Shown piece after piece: positions 5,743 to 49,874 of a stretch of DNA of 64,000 nt. The position numbers and the translations under genes are program-made. Each line of letters opens with the position of its first letter. Within the stretch, counting starts at the first letter, position 1. Under the pieces are notes generated by a model that worked only from the letters and a program-made list of their open reading frames with translations, searched no databases and was not told the origin of the DNA. The DNA comes from Sulfitobacter sp. 20_GPM-1509m. GTDB taxonomy: Bacteria; Pseudomonadota; Alphaproteobacteria; Rhodobacterales; Rhodobacteraceae. The DNA is taken from NCBI RefSeq assembly GCF_000620505.1, contig NZ_JIBC01000008.1:248001-312000 (forward strand), given 5' to 3'.

Positions 5743-6717
5743 ATGAAACCCATCAATCGTCGCACCGCCATTGCTGCCGTTGGAGCAGCCCTGGCGCTGG
5801 CCACGCCGCAGATCGCATCAGCACAGTCCAATGAACCCATCACATTCGTCGTCCCATACGGTGGCGGAGGTTTGGTCGATGGGATGACCCGCCAGATTGC
5901 CGATTTGGTTTCTACCGAACTGGGTGTTCCAGTGCTGGTGGAAAACAAGCCAGGTGCAAACGGCATCATCGGCTCTCAATACGTTGCGTCGGCAAAAGCG
6001 GACGGGCTGACATTTCTGGTCGGTGCAACCGGTCCGATTTCTCTGAACGTACTGCTGCGCCCGAACCTGCCCTATGGCCTGGAGGATTTCGATCCTGTCG
6101 CAACGATGTTCAGTGGTCCTCTGACTGTGACCGTTCCCGCGTCCTTGGGTGTGGATACAATCGACGGTCTGGCCGAATACGCCAAAGAAACAGGGCGGCC
6201 ACTGCGATATGCAACGCTTGGGCCGGGCAGCGTGACACATCTGTTTGGCTTGATCATGCAAGGTGAGTTGGGCGTCGACATGGTTGATGTCGCCTATCGC
6301 AACAACCCGGCGGCTCTGGTTGACCTGATGGGGGGGCAGGCAGAACTAAATTTCTCGACGCCCATTTCCCTTTTGGATCACGAGAAGTCCGGTGATATCA
6401 AAATGCTGGCTATCACCACGCCCGAGCGGATGGATCAATTCCCGGACCTGCCCACCACGACTGAACTGGGCTATCCCAATCTGGAATCGTCGTTCTGGTT
6501 CGGCTTGCTCGCCCCTGCGGGCACACCTGCTGAAATCATAGAAAAGGTCGGTGCCGCTGTTGAACACGCCATTAACGACGCAGATTTTCAGCAAAAGATG
6601 ATCAATGTCGGGATGATTCCGCAGCCGGGACTGGCTGACGCAATGCAGGCGCAGCTGGACACAGACATGAAAGTCTGGGGCAAGGTTGTCAAAGACAACA
6701 ACATCACCCTCGAGTAA
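5743..6717 (+). CDS. Bug/TctC-type tripartite tricarboxylate transporter binding protein (orphan)
   Basis: 324 residues. A Tat-like signal peptide (MKPINRRTAIAAVGAALALA, cleavage near ASAQS) is followed by the Bug fold: ITFVVPYGGGGLVDGMTRQ near 28, VENKPGANGIIGSQYVA near 65, and FWFGLLAPAGTP near 250. AGGAGAG precedes the ATG closely. Such proteins capture carboxylates in the periplasm. No TctA/TctB membrane gene adjoins it; the only ones in the window (28520-30491) have their own binding protein, so this copy is an orphan, common in this family. A strong stem-loop follows the stop. Co-control with the acyl-CoA operon suggests it delivers that operon's substrate. Confidence 0.93.
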   Translation: MKPINRRTAIAAVGAALALATPQIASAQSNEPITFVVPYGGGGLVDGMTRQIADLVSTELGVPVLVENKPGANGIIGSQYVASAKADGLTFLVGATGPISLNVLLRPNLPYGLEDFDPVATMFSGPLTVTVPASLGVDTIDGLAEYAKETGRPLRYATLGPGSVTHLFGLIMQGELGVDMVDVAYRNNPAALVDLMGGQAELNFSTPISLLDHEKSGDIKMLAITTPERMDQFPDLPTTTELGYPNLESSFWFGLLAPAGTPAEIIEKVGAAVEHAINDADFQQKMINVGMIPQPGLADAMQAQLDTDMKVWGKVVKDNNITLE

Positions 6718-6727
6718 ATATTAGACC

Positions 6728-6754
6728 GGCGCGTCGGGTCAGACCTGGCGCGCC
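6728..6754 (+). promoter_or_regulatory. intercistronic stem-loop after the Bug binding protein gene
   Basis: 6728-6739 pairs with 6743-6754 through 12 pairs, two of them G.U, closing a CAG loop 10 nt after the TAA. The outer arms are GGCGCG/CGCGCC. No U-tract follows and the SDR gene starts about 20 nt on. It is better read as an mRNA-stabilising or attenuating structure than as a full terminator. Confidence 0.55.
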
Positions 6755-6775
6755 AATGCTATGGAAGCTGCTTCA

Positions 6776-7558
6776 ATGGGCTGGCTCAATCTAAAAGATC
6801 GCACCGTTTTCGTCACCGGTGCAGCAGGCGGGATTGGCCGCGCCGTTGCACAAAGCTTTGCCGATCAAGGTGCCAGGCTTGCACTGTTCGACCGTGACAC
6901 CGAAGGACTGCGCGCTGTGGCGGGGCAGTTTGAAACCGCGCCGCTGGCCATGCCGCTGGATTTGTCCGATCTTGCCGCAGTCGAAACCTCCCTGAACACG
7001 GCCGCGGATTTGGTCGGTGCGCCCAGCATTCTGGTCAACGTCGCCGCCATGTCGTCCCCTGCCCTGCTGGCAGAGGTCAGCGAGGCAGCGTTTCATTTGC
7101 AGATGACTGTGAACACCACCGCTGCTCTTGTTGCAGCCCAGGTCTTCCGCCGCAGACGCGACACGGACCGACCCGCTGCGATCGTCAACATTTCCTCAAT
7201 CGCGGCTCAGAACCCCGTTCCAAACGGTGCTGCCTATTCCGTCAGCAAAGCCGCTTTAACGTCATTGACCCGTCAACTTGCGGTCGAATGGGGCCCCGAA
7301 GGCATCAGGTGCAATCTGGTAAGTCCTGGTCTGATCCTGACGCCGCTAAGCAAGAATTTTTACAGTGACCCACAAGACCGCAAGGCGCGCGAAAATGTCG
7401 TGCCAGTGCGTCGCATCGGAACGCCGCAAGATATCGCAGACGCAGTGCTTTACCTAGCCAGTGACCGGGCGTCCTATGTAAGTGGCGCGGATGTGGTTGT
7501 AGATGGGGCGTTCACACAAACGCTGATGACCCACATCCCACGCAAACGCATGACCTAA
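6776..7558 (+). CDS. SDR family oxidoreductase
   Basis: About 260 residues with TGAAGGIG (cofactor loop), VNISSIAAQN before the catalytic region, and YSVSKAALT supplying Tyr and Lys of YxxxK. The usual NNAG is replaced by NVAAMSS, and the C-terminus (YVSGADVVVDGAFTQ) is canonical. The ATG at 6776 is preferred because GGAAG lies 8 nt upstream; an in-frame ATG at 6761 lacks a ribosome site. It is the second gene after the orphan binding protein. Its stop overlaps that of the convergent TetR gene by two bases. Probable role: oxidation of a hydroxy intermediate; substrate unknown. Confidence 0.9.
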   Translation: MGWLNLKDRTVFVTGAAGGIGRAVAQSFADQGARLALFDRDTEGLRAVAGQFETAPLAMPLDLSDLAAVETSLNTAADLVGAPSILVNVAAMSSPALLAEVSEAAFHLQMTVNTTAALVAAQVFRRRRDTDRPAAIVNISSIAAQNPVPNGAAYSVSKAALTSLTRQLAVEWGPEGIRCNLVSPGLILTPLSKNFYSDPQDRKARENVVPVRRIGTPQDIADAVLYLASDRASYVSGADVVVDGAFTQTLMTHIPRKRMT

Positions 7559-40367: not shown

Positions 40368-41414
40368 TCACTGTGCGTCGGCGGCGGGATCCAGGCCTGC
40401 GAACCACTCAGCCAGCGCCGTGATTTCGTCGTCGCTCAGGTCCTGGGCGGCCTTGGTCATCAGCTTTGCACGCACCCCGCAGCCGCGGTGACCGTCGCGC
40501 CACAGCTTCAGCTGGCTTTCCAGATAGGCGCGACTTTGACCTGCCAACACCGGCGCAATCGGCGCATCCGCTGCCCGTCCGGGGCCATGGCATTGCGTAC
40601 ACGCAGGGACAGCGTCGGTGCCGCGCATGGCCAGCGCAGCGCCTGCGTGATCGGTTTGCGTCGTGGCGGTGGCTTGGTCGTTGACCGCCTGCGCCGCGCC
40701 ATACCGTCCCGCGATGCGGTCGATTTGCGTGTTGGTCAGCCGCGCTGACGCCTCTTGCATGATGCCGCTGGGGCGTGTGCCATCGCGGTACTGGATCAAC
40801 GCCTGCGTGATCTGGTCAGGCGTCAGAATGTCCAGTCGCGGTACATAGCTGTTGGTGCTTTTACCGCCCTCGCCATGACAGGCCGAGCAACGGGCCGCCC
40901 CCGAACCGTCCCCGGTCAACGCGGTCTGGTCCTGCGCCGTCATATCCGGCACCGCGTTCAAATAGGCGACAATTGACCAGATTTCATCGCTGCGTCCGTC
41001 TGCCGGCCAATGGGGCATACCGCTCATCTTTACGCCCTGTTCGACGATCCAGAACATGTGCTGCGGCTCCCATTTTGCCGCCGCCTCGGAGATGTGGGGC
41101 GGCGGCGGGTTCATCGCCAGCGCCGTGGCGCTGCGCGGCTGGCCGGGCACCGCGTGGCAAAAGGCACAGGCCCCCTGAAAATGCAGCGCGCCCAACTGAA
41201 TGCGGTCGGCATGGCCAATGTCGTCGGGCACCTCCGTGGCGTCCGGCGCGCGCAGACGCACCGATTGTTTGAACGTGGTGTGCAGGACCCATTCGACACC
41301 GGGCAAATGCCCCTGCCGTGCGGACACGTTGTACAGCCCAAAGCCTACGACCGCAGCGGCGGCAATCCCGCCGCATACGGCCAGCGCCGCCAAAGTTTGA
41401 AAAACCCGCTTCAT
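40368..41414 (-). CDS. triheme c-type cytochrome
   Basis: 348 residues with an N-terminal anchor or signal (residues 5-27) and three heme motifs: CAFCH near 83, CSACH near 176 and CTQCH near 272. The domains show cytochrome c features such as SGMPHWPADG (probable Met ligand) near 131 and LAEWFAGLDPA at the end. The gene overlaps the CtaG stop by 4 nt (ATGA). In an oxidase operon it likely passes electrons to subunit II. The gap to 40160 holds a short GC palindrome near 40360 and no gene. Confidence 0.9.
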   Translation of the reverse strand: MKRVFQTLAALAVCGGIAAAAVVGFGLYNVSARQGHLPGVEWVLHTTFKQSVRLRAPDATEVPDDIGHADRIQLGALHFQGACAFCHAVPGQPRSATALAMNPPPPHISEAAAKWEPQHMFWIVEQGVKMSGMPHWPADGRSDEIWSIVAYLNAVPDMTAQDQTALTGDGSGAARCSACHGEGGKSTNSYVPRLDILTPDQITQALIQYRDGTRPSGIMQEASARLTNTQIDRIAGRYGAAQAVNDQATATTQTDHAGAALAMRGTDAVPACTQCHGPGRAADAPIAPVLAGQSRAYLESQLKLWRDGHRGCGVRAKLMTKAAQDLSDDEITALAEWFAGLDPAADAQ

Positions 41415-41995
41415 GCCAGCTCCCTCTTGTCATCCAATGCCCGCGCCACCAGCGCCAGCCCCGCCACCAGATAGACGGGCGTACCGATGCCCAGCATCAA
41501 AAGCCCCCCCAGTTGCTGCGCATCCAGATCCGGCGCGCGCCCGCAAATCTCGGCATAGAGATCGCGCGGCGCCAATATGATCAACGCCCCCAGCAACGTC
41601 ATATGCATCGAGGTCAGCAACAAGCCCCCTGCCCCTGCCAGCGGTTGTTCGGCACGCAGGGCACCGGCCCAGACCAACAGACCGGCAATGGCGAAACTGC
41701 CCTGCTCGAACACCAGCCCCACGCCGTCCCCGTCGGCCCAGCCATGCAGCCCCGGCAGGTGCCACCCCCAGACGACCACGAACTCAAACGCCGCTCCGAC
41801 CAGCGGCGACAGGGCAAAGGGGCGCGTGGCGTTGGGAAAGCCCAGAACCAGCAGCGGCGTGACGATGGCCACCAACCCCATGTGCCGCAGCATGTGATGC
41901 GGAAAATCCGCCCCTGCCCAGTCCCCCAGCGGCAGCAACCACAGCGCGGCCAGAACCAGCAGGCCCGCGTATCCCAGCAGGGGCCTCACCGGCAT
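41411..41995 (-). CDS. ctaG: caa3-type oxidase assembly protein CtaG
   Basis: 194 residues from the ATG at 41995, overlapping the preceding gene by 10 nt. About five to six membrane segments; HMLRHMGLVAIVTPLLVLGF near 33, VVVWGWHLPGLHG near 74 and SMHMTLLGALIILAP near 118 with conserved His residues match the caa3_CtaG family. These are thought to help copper insertion into subunit I. It is not the Cox11-type CtaG. Confidence 0.88.
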   Translation of the reverse strand: MPVRPLLGYAGLLVLAALWLLPLGDWAGADFPHHMLRHMGLVAIVTPLLVLGFPNATRPFALSPLVGAAFEFVVVWGWHLPGLHGWADGDGVGLVFEQGSFAIAGLLVWAGALRAEQPLAGAGGLLLTSMHMTLLGALIILAPRDLYAEICGRAPDLDAQQLGGLLMLGIGTPVYLVAGLALVARALDDKRELA

Positions 41996-42381
41996 GTGCC
42001 GATCAACAGTGCAGGCAGGGCGACATAGCTGACCCCGATGAACGAAATCACCGTCAACAGAAACGCAGCATGGCCCAGAAACTGGTGGCGGTCCTCGCCG
42101 GTGCCCTGATCGTTTTCCCAATCCCGGTCACGCACCAGATCCCATTGACGCCACGCCTGCCAGCCCAGCCAGACAATCGCGACAAGCGCAACAACCGTGC
42201 CGATCCCGATGCCCAGCCGCAAACCATCCACCGCGCCGCCCTTGGCGCAAACCAAGGCCGTCGCACCATAGCATGCCGCGAAATGCACCGCCCAGATCAG
42301 CGGACCAAAGGTGATCCGCCACAGGCTGACCGCCTCGGACCGGAATTCGTGGGCATCCTCGTTCTCGGTGATCTCGGTCAT
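41986..42381 (-). CDS. small membrane protein of the oxidase operon
   Basis: 131 residues from the ATG at 42381, which overlaps the stop of the oxidase gene (ATGA). Three hydrophobic segments: about 22-45 (FGPLIWAVHFAACYGATALV), 55-75 and 103-125. The start is acidic. Proteins like this are found next to ctaG in caa3-like clusters but have no set function. Possibly an oxidase subunit IV-like or assembly component. Confidence 0.8.
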   Translation of the reverse strand: MTEITENEDAHEFRSEAVSLWRITFGPLIWAVHFAACYGATALVCAKGGAVDGLRLGIGIGTVVALVAIVWLGWQAWRQWDLVRDRDWENDQGTGEDRHQFLGHAAFLLTVISFIGVSYVALPALLIGTCR

Positions 42382-44942
42382 GGCAACCACCCCGGCACCA
42401 GCCCCAGCAGCGCGGCCGTGACCAGCACCTTCAGCGCCACGAAATGCCAGTACAGCGTGACATTGCGCAGGTCCGCATCATGGCGCGGCGTGACCTTGCC
42501 AAAGAGGCTGCCTGCCAGACAATAGCATTGCATGATGATCCCCGCGCACAGGTGCACCACCAACCAGACCATCAGCGCCCACAGGATCGCGGGATAAACA
42601 TGCGAGACCGGGTCCAGATCGCGCACCGCAAGCCATGCGGCTGTGGCCGCAGCCGCAGCACTCAGCGGAGCCAGCCCCAGCGCCAGCCGCGCCAGCATCA
42701 CATTGCCACGTCGGTTGACTTCGCGGGCCAACAGGGTTGCCGCCCAGGCCAGCACCCCCAACAGCGCCGCCGCGGCAACCCACGTGCCGATGGCATGGTC
42801 TGCACCGGCGGGCGGAAAATCGGGGCGCGCTGTCCAGTAGAAGAAGAACCCGAACACGATACTGGCAAAGGCGGTCGCGTCGCCCAGCATGGTGATCCAC
42901 ATACCCCACCAGCCCACGGCATCCGGCCCCGACGTATAGGTCGGCAGGCGCAGACCCAATCCCGCCGCGCGCATCTCATCCTTCGGTGGGCGCGCGGTGC
43001 TGGTCCACAACCAGTACAGCACACAGACAATGGCAAAGGCCCCGCAGACAATGGCGGGCTTGTAGATGTGGAACGTCGGAAAGATGAACGCCCCCCCGGT
43101 GAAGATCGCGGCCCAGATCGTGATCCACGCAGGGCCGGTGACCCGCTGCACATAGATCGGCTTGGCATCGATCACCGATGTGACAATCGTCTCGCGCTGG
43201 TGGTCCGGCGCATCGGGCAGGTAATAGCGACCCGCGTCCATGCGTTCGACCAGCTTCGGCTGGTCCCACAGCGGATACCGCGATGTGATATAGGGCACCG
43301 ACCGCACGCCCCAGGCTTCTTCGGGGACGTCGTGGGAGAAATCCAAAGTACCGGCATCCCACGGGTTGCGCGGAATTTGCCCCTGCCGCGATTTGGGCCG
43401 CAGCAGGTCATAGACGAACACCGCAAAGCCTGCGGCCACGACAAAGGCCCCGATTGTCGAAATCAGGTTCAGCGTCCCCCACCCCGAACTTTCGGGATAG
43501 GTGAACACACGCCGTGGCATCCCCATCAATCCGGTCAGATGCATCGGCAGGAAGGTCACGTTGAAACCGGTGAAGATAAGCCAGAAGGACCAGCGGCCCA
43601 GCCGTTCCGACAGCAGCTTCTTGGCGAAGAACGGGTAGAAGTAATAGACCCCCGCGATCACCGGAAACACCATGCCACCAAACAGCGTATAGTGAAGGTG
43701 TGCCACGACGAAATAGGTGTCATGCGCCTGCCAGTTGAACGGCACGATGGCCAGCATCACCCCCGTCAGCCCGCCCGCCACAAAGATCGCAAGCGCCCCT
43801 GCAATCCAGAGCATCGGCAGGCTCATCCTGACCCGCCCGACCATCAGCGTTGCGATAAAGGCAAACAGCTGGATACCCGTGGGGATCACCACCGCCTCGG
43901 ACGCTGCGGAAAAGAAAGCCAAAGACATCTGCGGCAGGCCGGTGGTGAACATATGATGCACCCACAGCCCAAAGCTGAGGAACCCTGTGCCCACCGCCGA
44001 AAGCACGATCCACGAATAGCCCACGATAGGCCGCCGCGCGACGGTCGGCACGATCATCGCGGCGATGGCGATGGACGGCAGAAAGACGATGTAGACCTCG
44101 GGGTGGCCGAAAATCCAGAACAGGTGTTGCCACAGGATCGGATCACCGCCGCGTTCCGGGTCAAAGAACGGCCAGTCGAACGAGCGTTGCAATTCGAACA
44201 GGAAATCGCCCGCAATCAGCGGCGGAAAGGCAAACAGGATCATCCCGCCCACGACCATCACATACCACGCATAAAGCGGCATGATGTTCACCCGCATCCC
44301 CGGCGGTCGGCATTTCAACGCGCCCACGATCAATTCGACCGCAGCGGCGATGCTGGCGACCTCGATGAACGACAGCCCCAACAGCCAGATGTCGGGGCCG
44401 ACGCCTTCTTCGTTCGTGGCCAGCGGTGGATACATGAACCACCCCGCCTTTGGCCCTGCGTCGAACAGAAGCGAGCCCATGACGAAACAGCCGCCGATCA
44501 GGAAACACCAGTAGCCATAGGCAGACAGGCGTGGAAACGGCATGTCGCGCGCGCCAAGGAAGGCAGGCAGCAACAGGATGCTGATCGCCTCGAACATCGG
44601 CACCGCGAAAAGGAACATCATCGCCGACCCGTGCATGGTAAAGAACTGGTTGAACCGGTCCGCGTCCAGGAAGGTCATGCCGGGAAAGGCCAGTTGCACC
44701 CGCATCGCCAGGGCCAGAAGCCCCGCCAGCAACATAAACCCGAAGGCGGTCAGGGCGTACCAGACACCCACCTCGGTGTTGTTCACCGCCGAGATATAGC
44801 GCCACCCCTGCGGCGTCTTCCACGCGGCGCGCAGCTCTGCCTTGCCGCGTTCCTGCTCTTGCTCGGACACCGGCTCGTTCAGCATCTCCTCTGTCGGGGG
44901 ATAGGGTCCTTCGGCCACGGGCAGCGGGGATGGGCGTGTCAT
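42378..44942 (-). CDS. ctaD: cytochrome c oxidase subunit I-III fusion
   Basis: 854 residues. Residues ~45-570 are subunit I with 12 helices; ~590-854 are subunit III-like. Ligands seen: heme a His104 and His417, heme a3 His415, CuB His280, His329, His330; the crosslinking Tyr284 and Glu282 are in GHPEVY. Asp133 of the D-channel mouth is kept. At the usual K-channel site PTGIK the sequence is PTGIQ (Gln358), and the D-channel asparagines in FPRxNN are replaced (FPRLSA). It reduces O2 at the membrane, coupled or weakly coupled to proton pumping. Its ATG overlaps the subunit II stop. Confidence 0.95.
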   Translation of the reverse strand: MTRPSPLPVAEGPYPPTEEMLNEPVSEQEQERGKAELRAAWKTPQGWRYISAVNNTEVGVWYALTAFGFMLLAGLLALAMRVQLAFPGMTFLDADRFNQFFTMHGSAMMFLFAVPMFEAISILLLPAFLGARDMPFPRLSAYGYWCFLIGGCFVMGSLLFDAGPKAGWFMYPPLATNEEGVGPDIWLLGLSFIEVASIAAAVELIVGALKCRPPGMRVNIMPLYAWYVMVVGGMILFAFPPLIAGDFLFELQRSFDWPFFDPERGGDPILWQHLFWIFGHPEVYIVFLPSIAIAAMIVPTVARRPIVGYSWIVLSAVGTGFLSFGLWVHHMFTTGLPQMSLAFFSAASEAVVIPTGIQLFAFIATLMVGRVRMSLPMLWIAGALAIFVAGGLTGVMLAIVPFNWQAHDTYFVVAHLHYTLFGGMVFPVIAGVYYFYPFFAKKLLSERLGRWSFWLIFTGFNVTFLPMHLTGLMGMPRRVFTYPESSGWGTLNLISTIGAFVVAAGFAVFVYDLLRPKSRQGQIPRNPWDAGTLDFSHDVPEEAWGVRSVPYITSRYPLWDQPKLVERMDAGRYYLPDAPDHQRETIVTSVIDAKPIYVQRVTGPAWITIWAAIFTGGAFIFPTFHIYKPAIVCGAFAIVCVLYWLWTSTARPPKDEMRAAGLGLRLPTYTSGPDAVGWWGMWITMLGDATAFASIVFGFFFYWTARPDFPPAGADHAIGTWVAAAALLGVLAWAATLLAREVNRRGNVMLARLALGLAPLSAAAAATAAWLAVRDLDPVSHVYPAILWALMVWLVVHLCAGIIMQCYCLAGSLFGKVTPRHDADLRNVTLYWHFVALKVLVTAALLGLVPGWLP

Positions 44943-45940
44943 TCCAACCCTCCCAGATAGGCGGCAAGCGCAGTCAGGTCGTCGGGCGACAGGTGGTCAT
45001 AGCTGGGCATGGCAACCTCGGGTTTCAGGGTCTCTGTGTGGGCAATCCAGTCGGCAAAATCGGAGGGCTCAACGCCAAGGATACCGGCACCCAACGACAC
45101 GCGGCTGCCCATATGGGTCAGGTCCGGCCCCACCTGTCCCACGGCCTGCGTGCCGCGCACCGTGTGGCAGCTGCCACAGCCTTCGCGGGCAAAAACCTGC
45201 GCGCCGCGCGTGGCCTCCTGGGTCTGGGGCGGCGTGGCGTCGCGTGCTTCGGCGGCCAACCATGCCTCGAAATCCTCCGGCTCCATCACCACGGTCTCAA
45301 AGGCCATCAACGCATGGGACGCGCCGCAGAATTCGGCGCATTGCCCGCGATAGACGCCCGCGCTTTCGGGCAAGAAGGACAGATAGGTCTCGCGGCCCGG
45401 GATCATATCGGCCTTGCCGCCAAGGGCCGGCACCCAGAACGCATGGATCACCCTATGCGCTTTCAACACCAGACCCGTACGTTGCCCGACGGGCAGCCGC
45501 AATTCGTTGGCAGATGTCACACGGCTGCCATCGGGCAATTCATAGTCCACCCGCCACCACCATTGTTCGGCGGTGATGTGCACACGCATTCCCTCATCCG
45601 CCTCACGCGGGGCCTGCATCAGCGGCAGGCTGTACACCAGCAACCCGCCCAGCAGCACGACGGGAAACAACACACCTCCGCCGACGATCAGCCCCTCGGC
45701 CAGCCCGCGCGACATCTCGCGCGGGTTGATCCGTGTCACATAGACAAACAGCCCACCCACCAGCAGCCACAGCACCAGCGCGCCGACAAACATCACCAGC
45801 GCCAGATCATACAGCAACAGGGCATCGCGCCCTGACGGGTTCAGCACCGATTGCCGCCCTTCACCGCAGGCCGATACCACAAGGGCGCCGGCCAGAGCGA
45901 CCAGCGTCCGCAACGAAGTGCGCGATCTGAAACAGGTCAA
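44939..45940 (-). CDS. ctaC: cytochrome c oxidase subunit II with cytochrome c domain
   Basis: 333 residues. Lipobox VVSAC gives Cys25, two membrane helices follow (about 43-66, 83-107). The CuA site is intact: VIHAFWVP near 163, then CAEFCGASHALM near 200 (two Cys, His, Met, Glu). A C-terminal cytochrome c has CGSCH near 252 and a Met ligand in VAMPSYDHL near 310. This caa3 layout accepts electrons from soluble or membrane cytochromes. It begins 13 nt after the permease gene. Confidence 0.95.
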   Translation of the reverse strand: MTCFRSRTSLRTLVALAGALVVSACGEGRQSVLNPSGRDALLLYDLALVMFVGALVLWLLVGGLFVYVTRINPREMSRGLAEGLIVGGGVLFPVVLLGGLLVYSLPLMQAPREADEGMRVHITAEQWWWRVDYELPDGSRVTSANELRLPVGQRTGLVLKAHRVIHAFWVPALGGKADMIPGRETYLSFLPESAGVYRGQCAEFCGASHALMAFETVVMEPEDFEAWLAAEARDATPPQTQEATRGAQVFAREGCGSCHTVRGTQAVGQVGPDLTHMGSRVSLGAGILGVEPSDFADWIAHTETLKPEVAMPSYDHLSPDDLTALAAYLGGLE

Positions 45941-45953
45941 GAATACACCCGCG

Positions 45954-47354
45954 TCATTGGGCCAGCTTGCTCATATCATCCCCTCCGGGTGTCTCGTCAT
46001 TCGATCTCATGTAAGCGATGGTCGCCCCCCACAGCACCACACCGATCGCCAGCAAAACGCCCGCAATCAGATACTGCACCGGGTCGCGCCCCGTCCAAGG
46101 CCCGACAAAAAACGCACAGCTCAGCGCGCCAAGATAGGGCAACCCCAGCGGCGCGGTGAAATGGTCGTGGTCCACCTTGTCACTGCGCAGCACCAACACC
46201 GCCACATTGACCACGGCAAACACCGCCAGCAACAACAGCGCGGTGGTCCCGCCCAGATCAGGCACCGCCCCGACAAAGGTGATCAGCCCCGCCGCCAATG
46301 CCGTGGTGAACAGAATGGCCACCCAGGGCGTTTGACGATTTGGCAACACGTGCCCCAATACCCTGGGCAACACCTTTTCCTCGGCCATGCCATACAGCAA
46401 CCGCGACGCCATCAGCATGTTGATCAGCGCGGAATTGGCCACCGCACACATGGTGATTACACCGAATACGCCCAGCGGAAACCACGGCGCGCCCGCTTCG
46501 ACGACCTTCAGCAGGGGCGTGGCGCCTTCGCTCAGGTCATCCGCCTCGACCAATGCAATCGCGGTCACCGATACCAGCAGGTAGATCACACCAGTGATCA
46601 GCAGACCGGTCAGCAGCACCTTGGGAAAGATGCGCGAAGGGTTCTTGGATTCTTCGGCCATGTTGACCGAATCCTCGAACCCGACCATCGCGAAAAACGC
46701 CAGGGTGGTGGCGGCGATCACCGGCCAGAACAGTCCTTTGTCAGTCTCTCCACCGCTGAAATCAAAGGCGCGGCCAAAATCCCCCTGACCGCCGGCCAGG
46801 GCCCACGCGCCGATCAGGATAATGATGATCAGACCGGTCAGTTCGATACAGGTGAAGACGACATTCATCTTCACGCTTTCGCCCACCCCGCGCAGGTTCA
46901 CCGCCGCGATCAGCGCCATAAACGCCAGACTGATCGCCGTCACGCCAAACGCCCCATCGCCAAACCCGGCGGTCTGGGCAAAGTTTTCAGCAAAGGCCCG
47001 CGACGCGGTAGATGCCGATGTGATCCCCGACGACATCACCGCAAAGGCCACGAGGAAGGTCAGGAAATGCACGCCAAAGGCTTTGTGAGTGTACAGCGCA
47101 GCACCTGCCGCACGGGGGTATTTTGTCACCAGCTCCAGATAGCTGCACGCGGTTATCGTCGCCAGAACAAAGGCCACGAGGAAGGGCAGCCAGACCACGC
47201 CACCGACCTCTCCGGCCACCTTGCCCGTCAGCGCGTAAATACCGGTGCCCAGCACGTCGCCCACGATGAACAACAGCAGCAACCCCGGGCCCATCACCCG
47301 CTTGAGCTTTGTCTCGCCACCCTCGTCCGAAGGCTCTGAAGCCGTGTCCGACAT
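45954..47354 (-). CDS. APC superfamily amino acid permease
   Basis: 466 residues with about 12-14 helices. APC family marks: LFIVGDVLGTGIYALTGKVA near 29, YLELVTKYPRAAGAALYTHK near 72, AFFAMVGFEDSVNMAEESKN near 224. N- and C-termini are charged and cytoplasmic-like. Resembles cationic amino-acid or YfnA-type carriers. It is 13 nt upstream of the oxidase subunit II gene on the same strand, an unusual partner for a respiratory operon; a link to amino-acid-driven respiration is inference. Confidence 0.92.
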   Translation of the reverse strand: MSDTASEPSDEGGETKLKRVMGPGLLLLFIVGDVLGTGIYALTGKVAGEVGGVVWLPFLVAFVLATITACSYLELVTKYPRAAGAALYTHKAFGVHFLTFLVAFAVMSSGITSASTASRAFAENFAQTAGFGDGAFGVTAISLAFMALIAAVNLRGVGESVKMNVVFTCIELTGLIIIILIGAWALAGGQGDFGRAFDFSGGETDKGLFWPVIAATTLAFFAMVGFEDSVNMAEESKNPSRIFPKVLLTGLLITGVIYLLVSVTAIALVEADDLSEGATPLLKVVEAGAPWFPLGVFGVITMCAVANSALINMLMASRLLYGMAEEKVLPRVLGHVLPNRQTPWVAILFTTALAAGLITFVGAVPDLGGTTALLLLAVFAVVNVAVLVLRSDKVDHDHFTAPLGLPYLGALSCAFFVGPWTGRDPVQYLIAGVLLAIGVVLWGATIAYMRSNDETPGGDDMSKLAQ

Positions 47355-47374
47355 ATCCCTCTCCGATACAGGAC

Positions 47375-47404
47375 AAAAAAAACCCTCCGCCGGATGGCGA
47401 AGGG
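47375..47404 (-). terminator. Rho-independent terminator of the PQQ dehydrogenase gene
   Basis: On the minus strand CCCTTCGCC pairs with GGCGGAGGG (one G.U) around a 4-nt loop and is followed by eight T's. It starts 11 nt after the dehydrogenase stop. It is the clearest intrinsic terminator in the window. Confidence 0.9.
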
Positions 47405-47414
47405 CTTTCGATTG

Positions 47415-49874
47415 TTAGTTCTGGGGCAGTGCGTAGGCGATGATCTCGTCGCCCACTTTGGTTTCCATGAAGTGATGCCCGCCGGGATAGATCACGACGT
47501 ATTGGCGGCCGTCGACCTCATAGGTCATCGGAGTGGTCTGGCCCCCGGCAGGCAGATCGACCTGCCAAAGCTCCTCCCCGGTTTCGGTCGCAAAGGCACG
47601 CAGCTTGTCGTCGGTGGTAGCAGCCACAAAGGTCACGCCGCCCGCCGTGGTGATTGGCCCGCCATTGTTCGGTGTCCCGATGGTCACCGGCAGCATCGAC
47701 GGAATGCCAAACGGTCCGTTGTTTTCAGCCGAACCGAAGGGTTGGTCCCAAAGGGTTTTTCCGGTGGCCAGATCAATCCCCCTGATCCACCCGTATGGTG
47801 GCTCGGAACACAGCATTCCGGTGAAGGGCACGCGCCAGCCCGCATTCACTTCGATGGCATAGGGCACACCTTCCATCGGACCGGCCTCGCCGCCTGCATC
47901 GCTGAACGGTTTGACCCCGCGTCTGTCGGCCTCTTCGCGCGGGATCAACTGGTTGTAGTTCGGCATGTCGTTATAGTTGGCAATCAGGATGCCGCGTTCG
48001 GTGTCGACCGACACGCTGCCCCAGTCCGATCCACCGTTATAGCCCGGATATTCGATAAACGGCTTGTCCGCCGAAGGTGGGGTGAACTGTCCCGCATAGT
48101 TGGCGCGGCGGAACTGGATGCGGCACCACAACTGGTCGATCGGGCTCATGCCCCACATGTCCTTTTCGGTCAGCGGCGGCTGGTTCAGGTTGGCATAGCC
48201 GGAATAGGGTTGCGTGTCCGAAATATACTCAGGCTCGACGCTGCCCAGCTTGGGCGCGGGACGTTCCTCGACGGGAAACAGGCTTTCCCCTGTCTCGCGG
48301 TTCAGCACGTATATCTGCCCCTGCTTCGACGGCAGGATCAGCGCCGGAACGGTCCCGCCATCAACCGGGAAATCAACCAGCGTCACCTGACTGCCCAGGT
48401 CGTAATCCCACACGTCGTGGTGCACCGTCTGGAAATGCCAGACCTCTTCGCCGGTTGTCGCATCCAGTGCTACGAGGGAGGACGCATATTCGTTCTCTTC
48501 CGCGCTGCGGTCGCTGCCGTAATAATCACTCGAAGAGTTGCCAAGCGGCAGGTACACATACCCCAGTTCCTGATCGCCCGAGGCCATCGTCCACATGTTC
48601 GGCGTGCCGCGGGTGTAGGTCTCGCCTTCGGATGGTTCATCAACGACACCACCTTGCCCCAGATCCCAGGCCCACAGCATCTCGCCCGTGACCACGTCAT
48701 AGCCACGGATAACGCCCGAGGGCGCATCGTTGGCCTCGTTGTCGCTGACCTGCGCGCCGATCACAGCCACGCCGCGCACAATTGTCGGCGGCGCGGTCAC
48801 GGCATACCATCCCGGCACCGTGTCGCCCAGGCCGTCGTTCAGATCGACCATACCTGCATTGCCAAAATCCTGGCAAAGCTGGCCGGTGTCCGCATCCACA
48901 GCGATCAGGCGCGCGTCCAGCGTGCCCATCAGGATCCGCGCAGCACACAGCGCGTCGGGGTCCATATCTGCCGACACGTGATAGGCCAGACCACGGCATG
49001 TCGCCCCATAGGGGATCGCATCCTCGGGCACGCCCGGATCATAGCGCCATTCCTCGCGTCCGGTGGAGGCATCCAGCGCCAGAACCTGATTCATCGGTGT
49101 GCAGACAAAAAGCGTATCGCCAACTTTCAGCGGCGTGTTTTCCGGCGAATATTTTGTGTCCCTGGCTTCGGTCGGCAAGTCTCCGGTGTGGATCGACCAG
49201 ACTTGCTGCAGCTGCGCCACGTTCTCGGTGGTGATCTGTGTCAAAGGCGAATGCCGCTCGCCATGAACGGTGCCACCGTAGACCGGCCAATCCACACCCG
49301 TTTCCAAGGGCGTGACCTGCGCGGGTGCCGCCGCTGCAACGGTTGTGTCTTCGGGCGCCTCGGCCTGCTCCGCCACATCCGGTGTTTCGGTCGCACCCTG
49401 AGACGTGTCTTGCTGCGCATGAAGCGGCACCGCTCCACCCATCACAAGTGAAAGGCCGAGTGCTGCTGTTGCCGCAACCGCAGTCACCCCGTTCATCCTG
49501 CGAGGACGCAACACGGGCAAGGCAATCAACACAAGAACCAGCATCACCGTAGGCGCAAAGACCCGTGGTTCCAACGCCCACCAATCCGAAGCAGGCTCCC
49601 AGCCGTCCAGGGTCACTTCCCAGATTGCCCAGATCAGCGTGCCCAGCCAGACGGCAACAAACACCACCACGCCACTGCGGCGCTTCTGGCACAGCAAAAC
49701 GCCAGAGACGATCAGCAGAACACCCGTGATCGCGTAATACCACGAACCGCCCAAGGAGATCAGCCAGACACCGCCCGCCGCGAGGATCAGCCCGATTGCC
49801 AGCAAGAGAATTCCTATGAACACAGCGTACCATTCAAATCGAGTGCGGGTGCGCGGTGTATAGGCCTCGGGCAT
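47415..49874 (-). CDS. membrane-bound PQQ-dependent dehydrogenase (glucose/quinate/shikimate type)
   Basis: 819 residues. Five hydrophobic helices in about 14-145 anchor the protein, as in glucose dehydrogenase; the rest is an eight-bladed PQQ propeller facing the periplasm. Visible: DWPVYGGTVHGERHSPLTQI near 199, FVCTPMNQVLALDASTG near 262, VWDYDLGSQVTLVDFPVDGG near 490 and LPAGGQTTPMTYEVDGRQYV near 775. Between anchor and propeller there is an Ala/Thr/Glu-rich linker (about 160-190). It oxidises a sugar or cyclic polyol and passes electrons to ubiquinone. No PQQ synthesis gene is in the window. AGGGAGAG precedes the ATG. Confidence 0.93.
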   Translation of the reverse strand: MPEAYTPRTRTRFEWYAVFIGILLLAIGLILAAGGVWLISLGGSWYYAITGVLLIVSGVLLCQKRRSGVVVFVAVWLGTLIWAIWEVTLDGWEPASDWWALEPRVFAPTVMLVLVLIALPVLRPRRMNGVTAVAATAALGLSLVMGGAVPLHAQQDTSQGATETPDVAEQAEAPEDTTVAAAAPAQVTPLETGVDWPVYGGTVHGERHSPLTQITTENVAQLQQVWSIHTGDLPTEARDTKYSPENTPLKVGDTLFVCTPMNQVLALDASTGREEWRYDPGVPEDAIPYGATCRGLAYHVSADMDPDALCAARILMGTLDARLIAVDADTGQLCQDFGNAGMVDLNDGLGDTVPGWYAVTAPPTIVRGVAVIGAQVSDNEANDAPSGVIRGYDVVTGEMLWAWDLGQGGVVDEPSEGETYTRGTPNMWTMASGDQELGYVYLPLGNSSSDYYGSDRSAEENEYASSLVALDATTGEEVWHFQTVHHDVWDYDLGSQVTLVDFPVDGGTVPALILPSKQGQIYVLNRETGESLFPVEERPAPKLGSVEPEYISDTQPYSGYANLNQPPLTEKDMWGMSPIDQLWCRIQFRRANYAGQFTPPSADKPFIEYPGYNGGSDWGSVSVDTERGILIANYNDMPNYNQLIPREEADRRGVKPFSDAGGEAGPMEGVPYAIEVNAGWRVPFTGMLCSEPPYGWIRGIDLATGKTLWDQPFGSAENNGPFGIPSMLPVTIGTPNNGGPITTAGGVTFVAATTDDKLRAFATETGEELWQVDLPAGGQTTPMTYEVDGRQYVVIYPGGHHFMETKVGDEIIAYALPQN

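Follow-up and report, generated by a model that had tools for sequence, protein, structure and literature searches.

Altered proton-channel residues across a bacterial lineage of fused COX1-3 oxidases

A gene encoding a fused subunit I/III oxidase (COX1-3) was analyzed in a 64,000-nucleotide stretch of DNA from Sulfitobacter sp. 20_GPM-1509m, from now on referred to as the window. Based on sequence comparisons, the encoded protein belongs to a large and old lineage in which the standard key residues of one proton channel are missing from all members and acidic residues have been added to the other (D) channel. Specifically, the K route is altered at three residues (K362, S299 and E101 of subunit II) and the D route has been rewritten. 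Textbook A-type oxidases possess two proton inputs, and much of the gating of their proton pump is placed in the D-channel asparagines. The lineage as a whole combines replaced asparagines and a dismantled K route with a retained active site and thus represents a natural test of proton uptake and pumping in cytochrome c oxidases. Our main reading, to which we assign a probability of roughly 0.5, is that the enzyme is a caa3-like O2 reductase that belongs to COX operon type a, is driven by cytochrome c and uses one D-type proton input.

The COX1-3 gene and its operon

Five genes, all located on the minus strand of the window, make up the system:

40368..41414 (-): c-type cytochrome with at least two heme domains (Pfam Cytochrome_CBB3 twice, plus Cytochrom_C)
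41411..42121 (-): Caa3_CtaG (Pfam, E 7e-22)
41986..42390 (-): small conserved membrane protein; no gathering-level family, only a sub-threshold DUF3262 match
42378..44942 (-): COX1-3 fusion (ctaD-like), 854 amino acids; identified by open reading frame and translation, Pfam, TIGR02891, COX3 profile and fold
44939..45940 (-): coxB, subunit II with CuA motif and C-terminally fused cytochrome c (Pfam COX2 and Cytochrom_C)

The COX1-3 reading frame is free of internal stops and consists of a subunit I part (residues ~48-540; Pfam COX1, E 5e-141) followed by a subunit III-like part (residues ~600-854). The curated cut-off of TIGR02891 (CtaD_CoxA) is barely passed (676.4 versus 670.75 bits). Searching the C-terminal part alone with Pfam did not return COX3. 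Comparison of a C-terminal profile with the COX3 profile gave an hhalign probability of 95% (E 2e-8), and a profile search with the C-terminal parts of COX1-3 proteins retrieves COX3 chains of the PDB. The AlphaFold2 model of COX1-3 is confident (pLDDT 85.8, pTM 0.88) and its best PDB fold match is the I+III chain of Thermus caa3 (2yev_A, 816 columns, TM 0.80 by query length), the predicted fold being that of a complete I+III subunit. These three lines of evidence for the COX3 identity of the C-terminal part bear out the description of the gene as an oxidase I/III fusion in an earlier sequence-only reading. Thermus thermophilus caa3 shares the I+III fold over the whole length, and its subunit II-cytochrome c is also the best PDB match of coxB (2yev_B, E 2e-51).

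The gene order coxB-c, COX1-3, small membrane protein, Caa3_CtaG and cytochrome c is found in 65 to 71 of 71 loci. A homologue of the small membrane protein occupies the same place in 65 of them, Caa3_CtaG is present in 68 and the separate c-type cytochrome in 67. The product of the Caa3_CtaG gene is a probable CuB-assembly factor, with a true start that probably lies near 41995, as annotated in a close relative (L128, CP069020), and the c-type cytochrome is the probable electron donor. A probable lipoprotein signal (VVSACG) is predicted for coxB; if the TTG start of 44939-45940 is used, the N-terminus contains the lipobox-like stretch VVSACGEG, and many coxB relatives have a similar Cys, then GPQSALDPAG. 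Directly upstream of the operon (45954-49874, minus strand), an APC-family permease and a membrane PQQ glucose/quinate-type dehydrogenase are encoded. Near the operon, a PQQ dehydrogenase is found in 8/71 loci and an APC permease in 2/71. In the pSymB locus of Sinorhizobium meliloti (L129), a gene annotated as a sodium:calcium antiporter (5937-7010) lies between coxB and COX1-3. An apparent lack of subunit II in Roseomonas mucosa (L130) and Paracoccus yeei (L140) was discarded: genes annotated as cytochrome b561/cytochrome B carry the CuA motif there. The subunits II of these two loci have no fused heme and are located with CopD and DUF2231 genes.

Proton-channel residues in the query and its lineage

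Query residues were assigned by alignment to subunit I of Paracoccus (1AR1; Pd numbering) and Rhodobacter (1M56; Rb numbering). The conserved PTGIK motif had been read as PTGIQ, and this is confirmed by the alignment, in which the motif spans residues 354-358 and Gln358 corresponds to K354 (Pd) or K362 (Rb). The replacement of FPRxNN by FPRLSA (residues 136-141) is likewise correct, with Ser140 at Rb N139 and Ala141 at Rb N140. For the Asn121 site, either Ile or Ser had been proposed; Ile is right (Ile122 = N121 Rb) and Ser is not. Retention of all heme and CuB ligands as well as Tyr284, Glu282 and Asp133 also agrees with the alignment to both structures. The His ligands are H104, H280, H329/H330, H415 and H417, while Y284, E282 and D133 correspond to Rb Y288, E286 and D132, respectively. 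The K-route Thr is retained as well (T355 = T359 Rb).

Several further differences extend the initial list. The third D-channel asparagine, Rb N207 (Pd N199 in the D-channel residue list of PMC3084760), is replaced by Glu203. Two additional glutamates, Glu194 and Glu118, are found at Rb G198 and G117, positions whose distance in sequence from N121, S197 and S201 suggests that they face the D-channel. Gly143 is located at Rb S142, Arg132 at P131 and Ala295 at the K-channel residue S299. The query COX1-3 is marked by residues Q358, S140, A141, I122, E118, E194, E203 and A295, and in its partner coxB, the Glu at the entry of the K-channel (E101 Rb/E78 Pd) is missing. Compared with canonical aa3 oxidases (1AR1, 1M56 and L001 from the same genome), the metal ligands, Tyr288, Glu286 and Asp132 are thus the same, whereas K362, E101(II), S299, N121, N139 and N207 differ. 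At N403 of the query (Pd D399/Rb D407, near the heme a3 propionate region), 15 other sequences also have Asn and 110 have Asp.

Conservation was assessed in a site table of 154 aligned sequences comprising 126 COX1-3-like proteins and 28 other A-type enzymes (Paracoccus, actinobacterial, haloarchaeal, quinol oxidases and proteobacterial aa3). At the K362 site, Gln is present in 126 of 126 COX1-3-like rows and Lys in 28 of 28 others; neither a Lys within the lineage nor a Gln among the other A-type enzymes was seen. Sequencing error or chance is excluded by this distribution. A second set of loci, compiled later and overlapping in part with the first, likewise had Gln in all 21 of its COX1-3-like rows. 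That the query gene could be a decaying or mis-sequenced copy is barely conceivable and is refuted by conservation: copies of COX1-3 elsewhere are 98.8% and 94% identical, relatives number in the hundreds, the catalytic residues are invariant and the operon is intact. The nearest plasmid-borne copies, found in Pseudosulfitobacter pseudonitzschiae, are 97-99% identical, which marks the host as related to Pseudosulfitobacter.

The remainder of the K route is partly changed and partly kept. S299 is replaced by Ala in 103/126 rows, and the E101(II) site is never acidic in the lineage (123/123 subunits II), whereas Glu is found in 14/14 comparable subunits outside of it. The I/III fusion was considered as a cause of the E101(II) loss and rejected, since Thermus caa3 is likewise fused, yet its subunit II keeps the equivalent Glu (LEVVWTLIP) that is missing in the query. 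T359 is unchanged in 117 rows and Ser in 7, the T352 position is Ser in all 126 and Y288 is kept, so that part of the K route survives. All 126 COX1-3-like rows contain E286, Y288 and the His ligands of CuB and heme a3; counting all heme and CuB ligands together with Tyr280 (Pd), the value is 125-126 of 126. E349, located near the K route, was rejected as a substitute proton donor, Glu being present in just 91/126 rows. No new conserved acidic or basic residue near the K route was found across the 126 rows.

In the D route, N121 is replaced by Ile, Val, Met, Leu or Ala (Asn in 0/126), and N139 by Ser or Gly in 116/126 rows, with Asn in only 6. Glutamate is found at N207 in 125/126 rows, at position 198 in 126/126 and at position 117 in 123/126.

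Proton uptake and pumping

The K route of model enzymes runs to the active-site Tyr, and one or two protons are supplied through it in each cycle (PMC8079940). As the entry Glu, the Lys and mostly the Ser of this route are absent in the COX1-3 lineage, protons are probably taken up via the D-type path. We hypothesize that electrons would reach the enzyme via both its fused cytochrome c and the separate one and that O2 would be reduced at the heme a3-CuB site, which by sequence is intact. The K route would no longer deliver protons in the usual way, and a rebuilt, carboxylate-lined D-type path would supply the chemistry and whatever is pumped, essentially as one input. In this path, the asparagine gate is replaced by Ser/Ile and three Glu, with the channel-end Glu286 kept. 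B- and C-family oxidases use one K-like channel (PMC8079940), and a single D-type input would be the reverse of this arrangement. A stricter version, in which there is no K-type path at all and a single Glu-lined D-type input serves chemical and pumped protons alike, is tentative and falls a little short of even odds; if true, it would make this bacterial A-like lineage a mirror-image counterpart to the B and C families.

Protons might instead still reach Tyr284 along a K route that works without Lys, using Gln358, Thr355, Ser348 and water together with an entry other than E101(II). Pumping would then be near normal and the D-channel changes would only retune rates. The Gln is polar and invariant, hence probably used, the Thr and Ser residues described above line the same route in nearly all rows, and B-type enzymes are known to use an alternative K-channel without Lys (PMC3084760). 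However, the Thr/Ser/Tyr replacement pattern of the B-type is absent, S299 is mostly Ala, the entry Glu is lost throughout and a new conserved acidic or basic residue near the route is missing, making a functional Lys-free K route somewhat unlikely.

With regard to pumping, the single D-type input proposed here would, with less confidence, be accompanied by reduced or differently gated pumping. Even charge-neutral mutations at the gate decouple pumping in Rhodobacter (PMC4321873), so that pumping may be altered in the COX1-3 lineage as well. This possibility, raised from the initial residue list, is made more plausible by the changes at E101(II), S299 and N207. Taken to its extreme, the enzyme could be a naturally decoupled oxidase, in which O2 reduction and charge separation proceed without any pumping because the gate asparagines have been exchanged for Ser, Ile and Glu. 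All three of them are indeed changed, and a Paracoccus D-pathway mutant with the sequence FPRLDN (PDB 3ehb) is titled decoupled. We nevertheless consider complete decoupling unlikely: the effects of individual mutations in a canonical enzyme may be a poor guide to a lineage with compensating E117, E198 and R131, which need not act like a single mutant. In addition, E286 and the arginines at the heme propionates do not vary, as would be expected of a pumping enzyme.

Class, relatives and distribution

Assignment to the A-type (A1) was examined using the channel residues of PMC3084760 (Table 2, Pd numbering). The query contains all A1 heme/CuB ligands and Tyr280. Its D133, Y62, S197 and E282 match D-channel Asp124, Tyr35, Ser193 and Glu278, and T355 matches K-channel Thr351. 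Unmatched are D-channel Asn113, Asn131, Asn199 and Ser134 (I122, S140, E203 and G143 in the query) and K-channel Lys354 and Ser291 (Q358 and A295). The query sequence thus departs from this A1 channel-residue definition at six positions; by sequence, fold and phylogeny, it sits with A-type enzymes. In B-type enzymes, the D-channel is absent and the K-channel Lys, Thr and Ser are replaced by Thr, Ser and Tyr (PMC3084760). This type was rejected because the query has Q358, T355 and A295 in addition to D133 and E282. The C-type, characterized by Tyr-II and the absence of Tyr-I, was rejected as Tyr-I is retained (Y284).

The heme-copper relatives of these enzymes include NO reductases, for which channel loss is typical, and the query could accordingly be imagined as an NO reductase or another heme-copper enzyme that is not an O2 reductase. 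This is highly improbable. The active-site Tyr, a CuA-containing subunit II and Caa3_CtaG are present, and the NO reductase motifs H-X-(Arom)-X-E and H-H-X-(Arom)-(Arom)-X17-E (PMC3084760) are absent, the query reading HHMFT and HLHYT. Based on the kept Tyr and CuA subunit and the missing motifs, O2 rather than NO reduction is favoured.

As described in the main texts of two earlier studies, the COX1-3 lineage corresponds to COX operon type a (Degli Esposti 2014, PMC4013037) and to A1 subtype a (2019, PMC6431628). The query locus shows the defining features of COX operon type a, namely a fused COX1-COX3 and Caa3_CtaG beside COX2-c and COX1-3. Shared with both descriptions are the COX1-3 fusion, the subunit II-cytochrome c fusion, Caa3_CtaG in the operon, a deep-branching COX1 and, in some members, a nearby PQQ dehydrogenase. 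In main-text passages of PMC4013037 and PMC6431628, the lineage is described by operon and phylogeny, and the proton-channel residues given above were not found there. One scenario given in PMC8239418 infers repeated losses of the K-channel within archaeal family A, and K-channel variants are classified in that paper; the K-to-Q change of the COX1-3 lineage may already have been mentioned, for example in this classification. Compared by description with these K-less archaeal enzymes, the query lineage is bacterial, I/III fused and carries a fused cytochrome c.

In a tree of 66 COX1 sequences, a single branch (100) separates the Gln-containing group (Q group) from all others. After removal of the trait columns, the Lys-containing K group is again split off by one branch (100/99), as is the Q group with weaker support (93/65), because three sequences of the HPWVY sister group join it. 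One change of label on the tree accounts for K to Q, also with the trait columns removed. The suggestion of a distinct heme-copper clade therefore holds, the substitutions being common to the whole COX1-3 lineage.

The lineage was found in Pseudomonadota, Planctomycetota, Myxococcota and Bdellovibrionota. Q-type enzymes are encoded in 25 of 199 genomes of the host's family, the query genome included, and in about 16 of 249 genomes of the host's phylum. Among the candidates scored, two genomes of the family (G047 and G048) contribute four COX1-3-type matches apiece. The query genome further encodes a full-length canonical COX1 (L001) and a quinol-oxidase-like COX1 (L002), both residue-checked, and an additional COX1-family match (L004) that is probably of the cbb3 type. 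The COX1-3 enzyme is most likely an accessory oxidase, which the genome encodes next to canonical aa3 and bo3 oxidases and, judged by match only, one of the cbb3 type.

Early-branching Q-type members (L175-L179) are not fused to COX3 and keep N139 but have Asn at D132, indicating that the D route is not uniform in the lineage. The HPWVY group (L111, L132, L157, L173 and L174) joins the COX1-3 lineage in the tree (100/99). It shares the replacement of K362, here by Ala, Ser or Thr, and E101(II) is absent in L111 and L157. In contrast to the COX1-3 lineage, Glu286 is replaced by Trp and N139 and N207 are kept, as is N121 in all but L111. Since K362 is missing in both groups, loss of the Lys may predate their split, after which the two may have changed the D route differently. 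Together, they constitute a natural variant set with which the functions of the asparagine gate and of the K-channel can be tested directly. One HPWVY member (L132) is a plasmid-borne Burkholderia cenocepacia locus. The caa3 oxidase of B. cenocepacia H111 (caaBAC), which may belong to the HPWVY group, is reportedly produced only when nutrients are limiting on solid medium (PMC11742914).
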